Source of the DNA: Acidimicrobiaceae bacterium
GTDB taxonomy: Bacteria > Actinomycetota > Acidimicrobiia > Acidimicrobiales > RAAP-2
DNA: 64,000 nt
Direction of reading: 5' to 3'
NCBI GenBank assembly: GCA_003155915.1
Contig: PMFA01000003.1
Span: 1 to 64,000, forward strand
The notes under the pieces were generated by a model that did not search any database, was not told the origin of the DNA, and was given only the letters and a program-made list of their open reading frames with translations. The position numbers and the translations under genes were made by a program. Below, in pieces: positions 35,049 through 40,154 of the stretch (position 1 is its first letter; each line of letters begins with the position of its first letter).

Positions 35049-36889
35049 CACGTCACGTCCGAGGAGATCGAGGCGCCGGAACCCTTCAGCGGCTTCTGAT
35101 AGGTGCCGTTCGACGGGATGTTGTAGTGGTGCAAGGCGTAGGACATGACTTCTTGAAAGATCGGCGCCGCGACCGCGCCGCCGAAAATCGTCGTTTCGGG
35201 ACGCTCTACCACCACGATCATCGACAGTACCGGGTTATTCGCGGGGGCGAATCCGACGAAACTGGCGTTGTAATCCCCGACCAGGAGTTTGTCCTTGCCG
35301 GGATACGGCATCGTGGCGGTGCCCGTTTTTCCGGCCACGCTGTAGCCGGGGATGATGGCGTTGGTGCCGGTACCGGAGAGCACGACCTGCTCGAGCATCT
35401 TCACCATCGTGGCCGACACGCTCGGACTGATCGCCTCGCGCTTCGCGCTGGGCGCAGTGGCCTTGACGGCGCCGTTCGCGAACACGTAGCCACGTACCAG
35501 TTTCGGTTCGACGAAGACGCCACCGTTCGCGATGGCGTTATAGGCGTCGAGGACCTGAATCGGCGGCACGGCGTCGACCTGACCGATCGGCAACGCCACC
35601 TGGTCGCTCGCGTACCAATTCGCGGTATTCACCAGCAAGCCGGATGATTGGCCCGGGAAGTTAACGGCGGTCGGCAGGCCGAATCCCAATCGCGTGACTT
35701 GCGTCAACAGACCGTTCTCGCCCACGCGTGCGCCGATTTCGTAGGTCCCGATGTTGGACGAGAGCGCGAGTACCTGAGTCGCCGTGAGGTGTTCGAGCGG
35801 GTGTTGCTCGGCGTCGTGGAAGTAGCGTCCACCGACGACGACCGACGGCGGCACGGTGATCACGCTCGTGGGCGTGATCAATCCGGCCTGCAACGCCGCC
35901 GAAAACGTCACGATTTTGAAGACCGATCCCGGCTCGTAGGTCTGGCTGAAGGCGAGGTTGTTGACGGTCTGCTCGATGCCGGGGACTCCGACGCTTCGCC
36001 CCCAGACGGGATCGGTGCCCAGCACGCCGGGGTGGGACTTGGTATTGGCGAGCGACGCGTCGGCGAGGATCTCACCGGTTTTCACGTCCATCACGACCGC
36101 CACGCCCGACACCGCGTCGGTGGCGGCGAGTTGTCGTGCGAGGTCGCGCTCGGCCACGAACTGCAACGAAGTGTCCAGTGTCAGTTCGAGCCCGACGCCG
36201 GGTTGGGCCTTTCGAATCACCGTACTGAACGAGCTGGGCAAGCTCACGCCAGAGGCGGACACGAATTCGCGAGTGATACCGGTGCTGCCCGCGAGCAGTT
36301 TTTGATATTCGTATTCGAGCCCGGCTGACCCGGCGCCAGCGGCGTTCGTGCCGCCGAGGACCGACGTCGCCAGTGGACCGTTGGGATAGTTGCGCACGGA
36401 TGAGTTCTGCACGACGACCCCGGGAAAGTCCAGAGCGGCCAATTTGCGTCCGGAGTTCAAATTCAACTTGTCATTCAAGATGACGTAGCCGTCCTTCGAC
36501 TTCGACAGCAGGGGGACGAGCCGCCTCACGGGAATCTGGATAATCGGCGACATCGCCTGGGCTTCGCGAAGCGGATGCTTGATCTGTATGTCGTCGGCGA
36601 TGACCAAGGACGTCGGCCGCGACACCGCGAGGATCTGTCCGTTTCGGTCATAAATACCGCCGCGCAACGCCGTCGTCGTGAGGTTCACCTTGACCTGGGC
36701 AACGGAGAGTTTGGCGTAGTGCGCGTGATCGACGACCTGGATGAAGAAGAGTCGCACCCCGAGGGCGACGAACGCTAAGGCCAGGAGGGACCGGAGCATG
36801 ACGAGACGTCGCGGACCACTGGCGCGTCGACGCGCGGGGTGGTGCAGGACCTGGGTGCGCGTGTGAGTCGGCGAATAGTGCGTGCTCAC
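35048..36889 (-). CDS. ftsI: Septal penicillin-binding protein 3, FtsI
   Basis: This 613-residue class B transpeptidase has one N-terminal helix (LRSLLALAFVALGVRLFFI) and a pedestal domain (RGGIYDRNGQILAVS). The transpeptidase motifs are SVFK (catalytic serine, in YEPGSVFKI), SSN and KTGTATM. No PASTA repeat follows. GTG 36889 overlaps the ftsL stop as GTGA. Confidence 0.95.
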   Translation of the reverse strand: MSTHYSPTHTRTQVLHHPARRRASGPRRLVMLRSLLALAFVALGVRLFFIQVVDHAHYAKLSVAQVKVNLTTTALRGGIYDRNGQILAVSRPTSLVIADDIQIKHPLREAQAMSPIIQIPVRRLVPLLSKSKDGYVILNDKLNLNSGRKLAALDFPGVVVQNSSVRNYPNGPLATSVLGGTNAAGAGSAGLEYEYQKLLAGSTGITREFVSASGVSLPSSFSTVIRKAQPGVGLELTLDTSLQFVAERDLARQLAATDAVSGVAVVMDVKTGEILADASLANTKSHPGVLGTDPVWGRSVGVPGIEQTVNNLAFSQTYEPGSVFKIVTFSAALQAGLITPTSVITVPPSVVVGGRYFHDAEQHPLEHLTATQVLALSSNIGTYEIGARVGENGLLTQVTRLGFGLPTAVNFPGQSSGLLVNTANWYASDQVALPIGQVDAVPPIQVLDAYNAIANGGVFVEPKLVRGYVFANGAVKATAPSAKREAISPSVSATMVKMLEQVVLSGTGTNAIIPGYSVAGKTGTATMPYPGKDKLLVGDYNASFVGFAPANNPVLSMIVVVERPETTIFGGAVAAPIFQEVMSYALHHYNIPSNGTYQKPLKGSGASISSDVT

Positions 36890-37365
36890 CGAATCGTCCT
36901 TGATGTAGCCGGTGCATAACCTAGGAACTTCGGTAGCCGCAAAGGCTCATCAAGTGACGTGGACGGGACTTGCGTCACCGAGACGGGGTAGACCAAGTGC
37001 AGGGCACCGGCCTTGGTCGCCACGAGACTGGGGGCGGCGAGATTGGTATTCGATCCCACCTGCTCGGCGTAGGTCGACTGCGACTGGAGGAGTTGACTCT
37101 GGAGCGCGTGTAGTTCGACCTGACGATTGGCGACCACCATGCTGCCCGCCATTGAAAGCGCGAGCGCGAAGATCACGATGACGCACGATTTTCGCAGTGA
37201 CGACGCCCCACGCCACGTGCGCGTGACTGCGCGACGGCGCGGGGCGGCCGCGACGTGCGTCGGACGGCGGCGGACTTCCGGAAGAGCCTGCGGACGCGTT
37301 TGGGGTCGGGTGCCCGGGCGAGGGCGGCCGGTATCGACGCGCCGGGGGAAGGTGATGACGCTCAT
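36886..37365 (-). CDS. ftsL: FtsL-like division protein
   Basis: This 159-residue single-pass protein has a 60-residue Arg/Pro-rich cytoplasmic part and one helix (CVIVIFALALSMAGSMVVA). A short extracytoplasmic leucine-zipper-like coil (LHALQSQLLQSQSTYAEQ) follows. FtsL is poorly conserved, so the name rests mainly on topology and its fixed place between rsmH and ftsI. ATG overlaps the rsmH stop as ATGA. Confidence 0.8.
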   Translation of the reverse strand: MSVITFPRRVDTGRPRPGTRPQTRPQALPEVRRRPTHVAAAPRRRAVTRTWRGASSLRKSCVIVIFALALSMAGSMVVANRQVELHALQSQLLQSQSTYAEQVGSNTNLAAPSLVATKAGALHLVYPVSVTQVPSTSLDEPLRLPKFLGYAPATSRTIR

Positions 37366-38300
37366 GGGAGTTTCCGTGCCCCCCGAAGTCGAGCCGAGCG
37401 GGCCCGCGGGTTCCGCTCGATCTCACTCTGGCCGGCGAGACGCGCGCTGGCCTTGAAGACCGTGACGCGAGGGACGGCACCGCAGACGCAACCAAGCTCC
37501 GGCGGACAGTGGCACCCTCCGGTCGCGGCTTCGTGCAGGACCGTCTTCACGACGCGGTCCTCACCCGAATGATAGGAAATGACGGCCAATATCCCACCCG
37601 CGGTCAGGGCCTCGAGCGCCGCGTCGAGCCCATTGGCCAATTCATCTTCTTCGCCGTTCACCGCGATGCGAAGGGCCTGAAAAACTCGCGTCGCGACGTG
37701 ACCACGACGACGGGCCGCCATGGGGACCGCGCGTTCGACCGCTTCGCTCAATTCATTGGTCGTCTGAGGCTGTCGTTCGAGGACGGACTTGGCGATCGAA
37801 CCGGCGAAGCGACTCTCCCCGTTTTCACGAAGGAGACGTACGAGTTGATGTTGGTCAACGTGGCTGAGGAACTGCGCCGCCGTCTCGCCCCGGGTCGGGT
37901 CCATGCGCATGTCCAGAGGAGCGTCAGCGCGGAATGAAAATCCACGGCTGGCGTCGTCGAGTTGGTGCGACGAAACTCCGAGATCCATCAAGATGCCCAC
38001 GATCGGCTCGGCGCCGATGAAGTCGGCATTGCGCACCAACGTGTCACGCAATTGGCCGAAGGTCGCGTCCACGATGCGGACACGACCTTCGAACTCGGCG
38101 AGTCGCTCCGCGGAGGCGGCTCGGGCATCGGGGTCTCGATCGATGCCAAGAATGCGAAGTTGCGGCGCGCTCTTCAAGAGCGCGTACGCGTGACCGGCGC
38201 CGCCCAGCGTGGCGTCGACCACAACGCCAGTCGGCTGACTGGCGAAGAGCTCGACGATCTCACTTTCGAGCACCGGTACGTGAAATATGTCCTGGGCCAT
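37362..38300 (-). CDS. rsmH: 16S rRNA m4C1402 methyltransferase
   Basis: This 312-residue SAM-dependent enzyme N4-methylates C1402 of 16S rRNA. MAQDIFHVPVLESEIVE leads to the SAM site VVDATLGGAGHA. GILMDLGVSSHQLDDASRGFSFR and ISYHSGEDRVVK are family signatures. The ATG at 38300 follows AAAGG, which lies at the foot of a long inverted repeat (38312-38368). Confidence 0.95.
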   Translation of the reverse strand: MAQDIFHVPVLESEIVELFASQPTGVVVDATLGGAGHAYALLKSAPQLRILGIDRDPDARAASAERLAEFEGRVRIVDATFGQLRDTLVRNADFIGAEPIVGILMDLGVSSHQLDDASRGFSFRADAPLDMRMDPTRGETAAQFLSHVDQHQLVRLLRENGESRFAGSIAKSVLERQPQTTNELSEAVERAVPMAARRRGHVATRVFQALRIAVNGEEDELANGLDAALEALTAGGILAVISYHSGEDRVVKTVLHEAATGGCHCPPELGCVCGAVPRVTVFKASARLAGQSEIERNPRARSARLRGARKLP

Positions 38301-38311
38301 CTGCAGCCTTT

Positions 38312-38368
38312 CAATCGTCAAGACGGGTGAGCAGGCGGAGGAGGATTCTCTACTCGTCTTGACGATTG
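38312..38368 (-). promoter_or_regulatory. Perfect 14-bp inverted repeat between mraZ and rsmH
   Basis: CAATCGTCAAGACG (38312-38325) is matched by CGTCTTGACGATTG (38355-38368). In the mraZ-rsmH mRNA this is a 14-bp stem with a 29-base loop holding CCTCCTCC. Its 3' foot is directly followed by the AAAGG ribosome binding site of rsmH (38311-38307). Each arm also contains a CGTCNNGACG palindrome, and the centres are 43 bp apart, so it could instead be a DNA operator pair. No U tract follows, so it is not a simple terminator. Confidence 0.6.
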
Positions 38369-38416
38369 CCAGGCTGCGCATGGTCCGCGGCCGATACTTC
38401 TGTTGCACTCCATTCA

Positions 38417-38836
38417 TTAGTCACTGCCCTGCTTAAAAAGCTCTTCGGCCGAGTTCACCTTCTCGGCGTAAATCGCGGGATTCCAAAGCTCGATGTGATC
38501 GAGCGTGCCCACGATCAACACGTCGCCACTCAGTTGTCCGTACTCGCGAATCGCCGTGGGCAACGCGAATCGCCCCTGCTTGTCAAACTCGACGTCCGAG
38601 GAGTTCGCCGCCCAGTAGCGAACCTGCTGGCGTTCGACGGATCCGCCGGCGCGGCTCTGTTCGAGGCGCTCATCGCTCTGGCGCGCGAACTCCCCCGGCG
38701 TCCACAGGGCGATGCACCCTTCAGTATTGGGGCTGAGGTGGCCGCCACGTTCGAACTCGACGCGAAATTTCGCGGGCAGGATGAGTCGACCCTTGGCGTC
38801 CAGCGAGTGCTGGTACTGGCCAACGAATCCGAGCAT
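38417..38836 (-). CDS. mraZ: Transcriptional regulator MraZ
   Basis: This 139-residue protein has two SpoVT-AbrB-like halves. The first contains YQHSLDAKGRLILPAKFR and the second VEFDKQGRFALPTAIREY. It binds repeats in its own promoter and controls the dcw operon. ATG 38836 is preceded by GGAGG at a good distance. Longer in-frame starts would absorb the operator sequence. Confidence 0.94.
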   Translation of the reverse strand: MLGFVGQYQHSLDAKGRLILPAKFRVEFERGGHLSPNTEGCIALWTPGEFARQSDERLEQSRAGGSVERQQVRYWAANSSDVEFDKQGRFALPTAIREYGQLSGDVLIVGTLDHIELWNPAIYAEKVNSAEELFKQGSD

Positions 38837-38845
38837 CGACGTTCC

Positions 38846-38901
38846 TCCCATGGGTTCACCACTTTCCCCCATTTCGTGACACATTACACCACCTAACCCC
38901 A
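38846..38901 (-). promoter_or_regulatory. MraZ operator: phased TGGNN boxes
   Basis: On the minus strand, TGGGG (38901-38897), TGGTG (38891-38887), TGTCA (38881-38877), TGGGG (38871-38867) and TGGTG (38861-38857) recur every 10 bases. A TGGGA at 38850-38846 is one base out of phase. Known MraZ targets are TGGGN boxes with a 10-base period. The array lies directly upstream of the mraZ start, and TAATGT (38886-38881) could be a -10 within it. Confidence 0.65.
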
Positions 38902-38988
38902 CTTGAATGCAAATCAAGACAATTTGGGGCCAATTTTCGGTTCAGGGACGCGACGATTCACCAGGGCGGTTTCGTGGAGAGAGCGGAG

Positions 38989-39651
38989 CTACGCGTGAAG
39001 AGAAAGTGCGCGGTACTGCCAGGGACCGCTCGAACGGTGAAGCGCTTCGATCAAAGTCTCCGGAGTGGCGTCGGTGAGCGACGAGAGAACCCGATGTTCC
39101 AGCGCTCGATCCAGTCCCTCCGGTACCTCGTTGAGGTAGCCCAGCACGTCCTGGGAGGAGTAGGCGGGCATAACCGTCGAAAGGAACACACCTTCACGCA
39201 CCCGCCACTGGGTTACGCCCACGGCCTTTTTCCCGTCGACGAATACCTCGCCCGGCCCTCGACCGGCGAAGCAGACGAGCCGATACGCCGGGTCCCCCTC
39301 GAGTGCCCCGTCGTGCACCGTGATGTCGCCCGCAACGAAATCACTCAGCACATCGGCCCACCATTGTCCGACCATTCGCGAACTCGCGTGCACGTCACTG
39401 CGCCAGCGATCGTCGCTCGCGGGAATCCACCAATCGATCCAGAGGTCGCCGGGCTGCACGAGCACGAGTCCACCGCCGCCTCGTCGACGCCGTAGCGGCA
39501 CACCTTCCAAATGCTCGGGGTTGAGAAGGTCCGTCGACTGAGTGCTGCCCAGCACGAGCGTGGCCCGCTCGGGGTGCACGACGTAGAACGTCGCGTCGTG
39601 TTCGGTGCGCAATTCGTCGTAGTCGTAGAGCTCGGTGAGCCGTGCGTTCAC
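38989..39651 (-). CDS. Lipoate/biotin-protein-ligase-family protein
   Basis: This 220-residue protein has the BPL/LplA/LipB fold. The substrate loop VPLRRRRGGGGLVLVQPGDLWIDW, the lysine in VFVDGKKAVGVTQWR and the strand VFLSTVMPAY match the lipoate-protein ligase catalytic core. It lacks the C-terminal accessory domain of E. coli LplA. GTG 39651 overlaps the HNH gene stop as GTGA. Substrate (lipoate, octanoate or other) is unknown, and no lipoyl-domain gene is nearby. Confidence 0.75.
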   Translation of the reverse strand: MNARLTELYDYDELRTEHDATFYVVHPERATLVLGSTQSTDLLNPEHLEGVPLRRRRGGGGLVLVQPGDLWIDWWIPASDDRWRSDVHASSRMVGQWWADVLSDFVAGDITVHDGALEGDPAYRLVCFAGRGPGEVFVDGKKAVGVTQWRVREGVFLSTVMPAYSSQDVLGYLNEVPEGLDRALEHRVLSSLTDATPETLIEALHRSSGPWQYRALSLHA

Positions 39652-40154
39652 GACGCCCGAGGGAGGTACGGCGCCCACAACGGGTCGGGGTCGGGCAAGT
39701 GCCGCCAACGCCACCACGGCCCGTCGGGCACGCGCGGTTCGAAGTGCATGCGCCAACCGATCTCCTCGAGTAACCGGTCTCCCTTTTGCATGTTGTGACT
39801 CCGGCAGGCCGCCACCACGTTGGTCCATTCGTGACGACCACCTCGACTGCGCGGAACGACGTGGTCGATCGTGTCGGCGTGTTCCAGACAGTAAGCGCAG
39901 CGATAACTGTCGCGCAGCAAGAGCGATCGCCGTGTCAAGGGCGGCGTGCGCACTTTGGAGGGTAACTTCACCATGTCGTGGAGTCGAACGATCGCCGGAA
40001 TCTCTACCACGACCGACGCCGAGCGACAGACGTTCGGGCACTCGGGCGTGACGATCGGCTCCGCGCGACCGGCCAGCATCAAGACGACCGCACGTCGCTC
40101 GCTCACGAGTTGCAGCGGCTCGAACGTGGCATTCAAGAGCAGGACCCGACTCAC
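39648..40154 (-). CDS. HNH endonuclease-domain protein
   Basis: This 168-residue protein begins VSRVLLLNATFEPLQLV. It carries the HNH nuclease core with RDSYRCAYC (zinc pair), DTIDHVVPRSRGG (first His) and NVVAACRSHNMQKGD. A stand-alone HNH protein of this type is widespread in actinobacteria and its cellular role is not known. GTG 40154 overlaps the 86-aa gene stop by 4 bases. Confidence 0.82.
   Translation of the reverse strand: MSRVLLLNATFEPLQLVSERRAVVLMLAGRAEPIVTPECPNVCRSASVVVEIPAIVRLHDMVKLPSKVRTPPLTRRSLLLRDSYRCAYCLEHADTIDHVVPRSRGGRHEWTNVVAACRSHNMQKGDRLLEEIGWRMHFEPRVPDGPWWRWRHLPDPDPLWAPYLPRAS

Follow-up and report, generated by a model that had tools for sequence, protein, structure and literature searches.

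A probable structured leader RNA upstream of rsmH in the class Acidimicrobiia, with a conserved loop that may resemble the RsmH target in 16S rRNA

In very many bacteria the rsmH gene (also called mraW) stands first in the mra/dcw cluster of cell-wall and division genes, and we know of no settled reason for the placement of a ribosome-modifying enzyme in this cluster. The MraZ operator, found before mraZ, is the DNA site of a transcription factor. The element described here belongs to the same controlled operon, but it is an RNA that lies after mraZ and not a conserved DNA palindrome. Ribosomal-protein leader RNAs that mimic rRNA also exist, for example those of S15 or S6:S18. Our element shares with them a frequency of about one leader per genome, a position ahead of a gene whose product acts on rRNA and, as we propose, a conserved loop resembling an rRNA site. 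It differs from them in that its gene encodes an rRNA methyltransferase instead of a ribosomal protein, and in that the resemblance covers about ten bases, was noticed post hoc and exists at the sequence level only. As expected of an autogenous leader, a conserved, covarying RNA lies upstream of the gene.

RsmH N4-methylates C1402 of 16S rRNA and is reported to need 30S subunits and not protein-free 16S rRNA (PMC5053481). The closest described RNA is the mraW RNA (RF01746), which is entered as a probable RNA and a probable cis-regulator, with Actinomycetales as its taxon, in Weinberg et al. 2010 (PMC2864571). It has been reported from Corynebacterium transcriptomes (PMC3890552 and PMC4046766), and its function was stated to be unknown in a 2017 paper (PMC5640933). 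Like the present element, the mraW RNA is found upstream of rsmH in Actinomycetota and has a pyrimidine-rich terminal loop. It differs in architecture, being a single hairpin, and in its loop, CACUUCCCCGG; the consensus has the terminal loop ACUUCCCC on a CCUGgcgc stem, whereas the loops described here are of the CC(G/A)CC types. Among the papers listed by searches of the open-licence PMC literature we found no report of the present element, and the main text of PMC6429828 mentions none of mraW, rsmH, mraZ and Acidimicrob.

The window (the whole stretch of DNA that was analysed, 64,000 nucleotides from an Acidimicrobiaceae bacterium) had no match to RF01746 between 38000 and 39100 at E values up to 10, and the best score in its own genome was 21.3 bits, on another contig, against a gathering cut-off of 50 bits. 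None of 100 genomes of the class matched RF01746 at E 0.001, with the control, C. glutamicum, scoring over the cut-off; across the phylum, 8 of 119 genomes matched. Conversely, our own covariance model R1, built from 14 sequences (11 from other families and three from the same genus), did not match any of four RF01746 loci. We rejected the element as a member of the mraW RNA family on the score below cut-off, the different loop and architecture and the failure of each model on the other's loci. Because architecture and loop differ and the models are mutually blind on the loci tried, the element is better described as a variant of the rsmH-leader kind than as a member of RF01746. In three genomes of one family (f73), RF01746 matched both strands of the same place (loci L057, L058 and L059, with L065 to L067 on the opposite strand). 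Neither on the window nor on ten relatives did any Rfam 15 family score close to its cut-off, so the element could be added to annotation. The existence of a class-wide rsmH leader distinct in structure from the mraW RNA suggests that RNA-level control of rsmH arose or diverged more than once.

The minus strand of the window carries mraZ and rsmH (Table 1), and after them a gene that Pfam does not match, one for a penicillin-binding transpeptidase and one for a Mur ligase, all as assigned by Pfam. The gene between rsmH and the transpeptidase gene (36886-37365, minus strand) occupies what we take to be the usual ftsL position. Upstream of mraZ is a lipoyl ligase-like gene (38989-39693, minus strand; PF21948, E 7.6e-10). 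Directly upstream of mraZ the words GTGGGG, GGTGGTG and TGGGGG are repeated (38860-38909, minus strand), which is reminiscent of MraZ operator repeats. The mraZ stop codon overlaps an ATG in the sequence TAATG (38415-38419), which opens a frame through the hairpin into rsmH, and a long form of RsmH is possible.

Between mraZ and rsmH the initial annotation had pointed out a perfect 14-bp inverted repeat, CAATCGTCAAGACG / CGTCTTGACGATTG, and the repeat is indeed present. Read on the minus strand, its 3' foot abuts an AAAGG six bases ahead of the rsmH ATG (38300-38298), and its loop contains CCTCCTCC, also as described. It had been taken for the longest perfect inverted repeat noticed in the window, which it is not: there is an 18-nt perfect repeat at 8224-8241/8277-8294, with arms 35 nt apart, and a 16-nt one at 57074-57089/57091-57106, with one base between the arms. 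The 14-bp repeat is the middle of a longer one, with 35-nt arms (38294-38328 and 38352-38386) that are 83% complementary, and this longer repeat heads the list of inverted repeats in the window with arms no more than 100 nt apart. Folded as RNA, the region 38290-38420 reached -54.2 kcal/mol against -37.55 (sd 3.6) for shuffled sequences, a z score of -4.63, with none of 200 shuffles equally stable. An intrinsic terminator or attenuator was rejected; no run of T follows the stem, and a scan of 37900-39100 that allowed loops of 3-8 only found no terminator-like site.

Table 1. Features of the mraZ-rsmH region, in window coordinates.
Feature	Positions	Strand	Basis
14-bp perfect repeat, one arm	38312..38325		sequence
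14-bp perfect repeat, other arm	38355..38368		sequence
Whole leader RNA element	38294..38388	-	model matches: R1 49.8 bits, R2 48.5 bits
Stem P1, 5' strand (alignment columns 3-33)	38356..38386	-	covariation counts, unguided consensus fold
Stem P1, 3' strand; includes AAAGG and ATG of short rsmH frame	38294..38325	-	covariation, consensus fold
Inner hairpin P2, 5' strand (columns 38-42)	38347..38351	-	genus-alignment consensus fold
P2, 3' strand (columns 57-61)	38328..38332	-	genus-alignment consensus fold
P2 loop (ATCCTCCTCCGCCT)	38333..38346	-	consensus fold; most conserved part of the family
Loop core UCCGCC, aligned with 16S CCGCC around C1402	38334..38339	-	loop and 16S comparison
AAAGG, putative rsmH ribosome binding site, paired in P1	38307..38311	-	sequence and fold; function inferred
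rsmH (mraW), short frame, begins MAQDIFHVP	37362..38300	-	Pfam PF01795, E 4.1e-91
rsmH, long in-frame reading frame, ATG overlapping mraZ stop (TAATG)	37362..38417	-	sequence; genus loci
mraZ, ATG of MLGFVGQ to stop; start picked by eye	38417..38836	-	Pfam PF02381, E 1.7e-20

The rsmH genes of relatives were found in 59 of 61 genomes, and the mraZ-rsmH gap was then aligned. The genus alignment has 32 sequences (30 distinct) in 95 gap-free columns, and the hairpin pairs in 86.7% of its cells. Among the 30 distinct sequences, 16 of 34 pairs show changes on both sides; shuffling gave a mean of 11.9, and none of 500 shuffles reached 16, although the kinship of the sequences means that such counts cannot be taken as probabilities. 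The number of cells changed on both sides was 94, against 40.2 when shuffled, and the covariation score was 0.254, against 0.117 shuffled and 0.070-0.122 when the structure was slid. An unguided consensus fold of the same alignment returned the same stem and also a P2 of five pairs that closes the loop; of the 29 pairs in this fold, 13 have changes on both sides. At the level of the order, both-side changes occur in 28 of 41 pairs, against 13.9 by shuffling. Counted on the sense strand, G-U pairs are more frequent than A-C mismatches (77 to 53 in the genus, 45 to 24 at the order level and 309 to 111 in a further count). Three of our alignments (A2, A4 and A6) are biased towards the model, having been fitted to it; A1 and A5 were made with MAFFT, but A1 was hand-trimmed and its structure drawn from single-sequence folds. 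The compensatory changes proposed as a check on an RNA stem were thus found, and covariation together with class-wide retention upstream of rsmH strongly supports the stem-loop. By this evidence the mraZ-rsmH hairpin is an RNA element and not a DNA palindrome, and it is very probably a functional RNA.

Judged by model matches, the leader RNA family is found throughout the class Acidimicrobiia of the Actinomycetota. R1 matched 268 of 395 class genomes. R2, a model rebuilt from 99 aligned matches, matched 317 of the 395 and left 78 without a match; in class genomes at least 90% complete and no more than 5% contaminated it matched 212 of 268. In a phylum sample R2 matched 24 of 396 genomes, all of them from the same class or closer. 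Some 358 of the unmatched genomes in this sample would belong to other classes, going by the order of kinship in the table, 352 rows of which are not printed. The only R1 match outside the class (G771, L116) was rejected, as a hairpin without the loop that disappeared with R2. Among the matches listed, second matches within a genome were mostly on the opposite strand of the same place, the exceptions being G365 (two contig ends) and G502 (a weak second place).

Among named rsmH loci, 7 of 37 tried, from 80 fetched, matched R1 on the sense strand at E < 0.001, including 'Acidimicrobiaceae bacterium bog_634', two entries titled 'Acidimicrobiia bacterium' and an 'Ilumatobacteraceae bacterium'. 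The 30 unmatched loci include Streptomyces, Amycolatopsis, Nocardia, a member of the Coriobacteriia and Firmicutes; two loci titled Acidimicrobiaceae (L189 and L193) were also without an R1 match. Of the 33 genus loci tried, R1 matched 31. The two unmatched ones, L038 and L039, lack the element, as do L048 and L056 from the same order, and these are natural deletions. Since 78 of the 395 class genomes are unmatched and some relatives are without the element, it is not essential.

Outside the genus, in other families of the order, the element is longer and forms a three-way junction of P1, a P2 whose loop is built around ACUCCGCCCG, and P3. The P2 loop is the most conserved part of the element, and ACUCCGCCCG is its commonest form. 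The loop of 97 aligned elements reads C, U, C, C, G/A, C, C; its single-letter positions are kept at 98-100%, and the G/A position has G in 93% and A in 7%. CC(G/A)CC occurs in 151 of 158 distinct elements, with ACTCCGCCCG the commonest version (80). In one family (f33), all nine loci keep ACTCCGCCC within AT-rich flanks, the elements themselves having about 44% G+C where measured. One locus (L276, from genome G081) has the divergent loop AAACCGCCCG, in which ACU has become AAA and CCGCCCG is retained.

A same-strand rsmH lies downstream of the element in all 97 loci checked. Fourteen of these came from stretches fetched upstream of rsmH, so that only the other 83, found by the RNA model alone without use of rsmH, test the link independently. 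The 97 are best-scoring hits and not a random sample; they are those of 100 given that had a sense-strand match at E 1e-8 (L113, L114 and L115 did not), and five antisense rows were left out of the element alignment. Upstream, mraZ was detected in 86 of the 97, many of which have limited upstream sequence. The distance from element to rsmH ranges from -15 to +219 nt, and a start codon within the foot of P1 and in frame with rsmH occurs in only 40 of the 97 loci. Masking of the start is therefore not the general mechanism, and sequestration of the start codon was rejected as a family-wide explanation on this count and on rsmH starts as far as 219 nt past the element. As far as the aligned loci tell, the buried start in the window is one local arrangement and not the common feature of the family.

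The loop ACTCCGCCCG was compared with the 16S gene of one class genome (G066; two of six genomes searched gave a 16S match). Its best match there, at 9 of 10 positions, is ACACCGCCCG, the stretch that holds C1402 and that we take to be positions 1396-1405 of E. coli 16S rRNA. Against shuffled loops this 10-mer gave p values of 0.0029 at the C1402 site and 0.04 over all of 16S, a 9-mer gave 0.021 and 0.18, and a 14-mer gave 0.26 and 0.95, which is not significant; these tests are post hoc, and the match fades with the segment chosen. Loop-position frequencies were compared with 16S in the 151 core-bearing elements of the 158 distinct ones, a selection by which the core letters are fixed. Of these, 81 match the C1402 stretch at 9 of 10 positions, 30 at 8, 27 at 7 and 13 at 6, so that 70 of the 151 match at 8 or fewer, and 98% have U where 16S has A1398. 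The window's own loop matches at 7 of 10, counted by eye, and the divergent loop AAACCGCCCG at 9 of 10 at the same stretch. The best 16S match of the mraW loop is not at the C1402 site, which lends no support to mimicry. Mimicry of the C1402 stretch by the loop is thus only suggestive, a lead and not a result.

We tentatively regard the element as a cis-acting leader RNA that controls rsmH through a factor reading the P2 loop, a reading we hold to be possible but short of probable. A trans-acting factor would recognize the loop, and the RNA would set the expression of rsmH. RsmH is the likeliest and most economical candidate for the reader, since the loop reproduces most of the stretch of 16S rRNA that surrounds C1402, the target of the enzyme, although the identification is doubtful. 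In the window, the AAAGG and the start codon of the short rsmH frame would be paired within P1. A ribosome that finishes mraZ could start again at the AUG overlapping the stop in frame and would thereby melt the hairpin. If RsmH exceeded the unmodified 30S subunits, the surplus would bind to the leader of its own mRNA and close it, so that the leader may let the cell sense and limit RsmH. In the fullest version, which we consider rather unlikely, RsmH would bind, and perhaps methylate, a replica of its rRNA target carried by the leader of its own mRNA, and the supply of unmodified 30S subunits would set the expression of RsmH and of the division operon. Such substrate-mimicry feedback by an rRNA methyltransferase, if true, would link ribosome maturation to cell division. 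The hairpin may in any case be a control point between mraZ and the rest of the division operon, as the initial annotation had supposed.

The long P1 duplex, present in every element folded, could instead be a substrate for a duplex-specific nuclease such as RNase III, which would cut P1 and separate the mraZ mRNA from that of the rest of the division operon without any feedback. As processing or insulation of this kind would have it, the element keeps its place between the two genes both where P1 contains the rsmH start and where it does not. Plain duplex cleavage has no need of a near-invariant P2 loop sequence, however, and we consider this explanation unlikely.

Translational coupling alone, in which the hairpin closes rsmH unless ribosomes finishing mraZ melt it and the loop is not read, would account for the position of AAAGG and AUG within P1 in the genus. 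In 28 of the 32 genus loci, despite differing lengths, a start codon that overlaps the stop of mraZ opens an uninterrupted frame into rsmH; of the other four, one is without data, one is misplaced by a run of N (L021) and two have an in-frame GTG a few bases later. All six further loci with data from the family of the genus (f1; three of them from the same genus) also have an in-frame start there. Outside this family such a start is present in 31 loci and in frame in only 8 of them, which is about chance, and 49 loci have no start there; twelve loci in the whole count were without data. Most loci also have the rsmH start outside P1 and still keep the loop, and coupling as the sole function is distinctly unlikely. 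Our own reading is that in the family of the genus ribosomes would restart at the mraZ stop and pass through the hairpin, with selection acting mainly on the RNA.

CUCC is found in nearly all loops, and P3 often contains GGGGAGA, so the loop might be an anti-Shine-Dalgarno mimic or pair with purines elsewhere, such as GGAG in P3. Loops of this type were also looked for, by pattern and by eye, in 36 upstream regions of the 80 named rsmH loci. P3 is missing in the window and in many relatives, what the class keeps is CC(G/A)CC, and the locus with AAACCGCCCG has no CUCC. The initial suggestion that CCTCCTCC acts by pairing with purines of a ribosome binding site thus finds no support class-wide, and an anti-Shine-Dalgarno role is improbable.

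A riboswitch binding a metabolite, SAM or a cell-wall precursor, would suit the three-way junction of many relatives and the control of a single gene. P3, and hence the junction, is missing in the forms of 88-101 nt, the window element included, and conservation is confined to one terminal loop, a pattern more typical of a protein or RNA target. We consider a riboswitch quite improbable.

In those genus loci where it can be read, the frame that runs from the mraZ stop across the hairpin is open, and the conservation might reflect nothing but an N-terminal extension of RsmH. Differences in the leader are spread evenly over codon positions 1 to 3 (0.234/0.236/0.208), whereas rsmH of the same genomes has a strong third-position excess (0.284/0.218/0.571). 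In most other families this frame is closed or does not match that of rsmH, or the mraZ stop has no start codon beside it. A purely coding explanation of leader conservation was rejected on the codon pattern and is very improbable.

The alternative offered at the outset, a DNA operator of two CGTCNNGACG sites, is almost certainly wrong. In the window the two palindromes are perfect, but only 3 of 32 genus sequences keep both, the arms covarying and keeping their pairing with other letters, and within the genus we rejected a conserved DNA site of this kind. Each arm does contain the palindrome (38316-38325 and 38355-38364), with centres 39 bp apart and not the 43 bp first given. A search of the genome for other CGTCNNGACG pairs, which had been proposed as a further check, returned four places with two palindromes, 20-45 bases apart.
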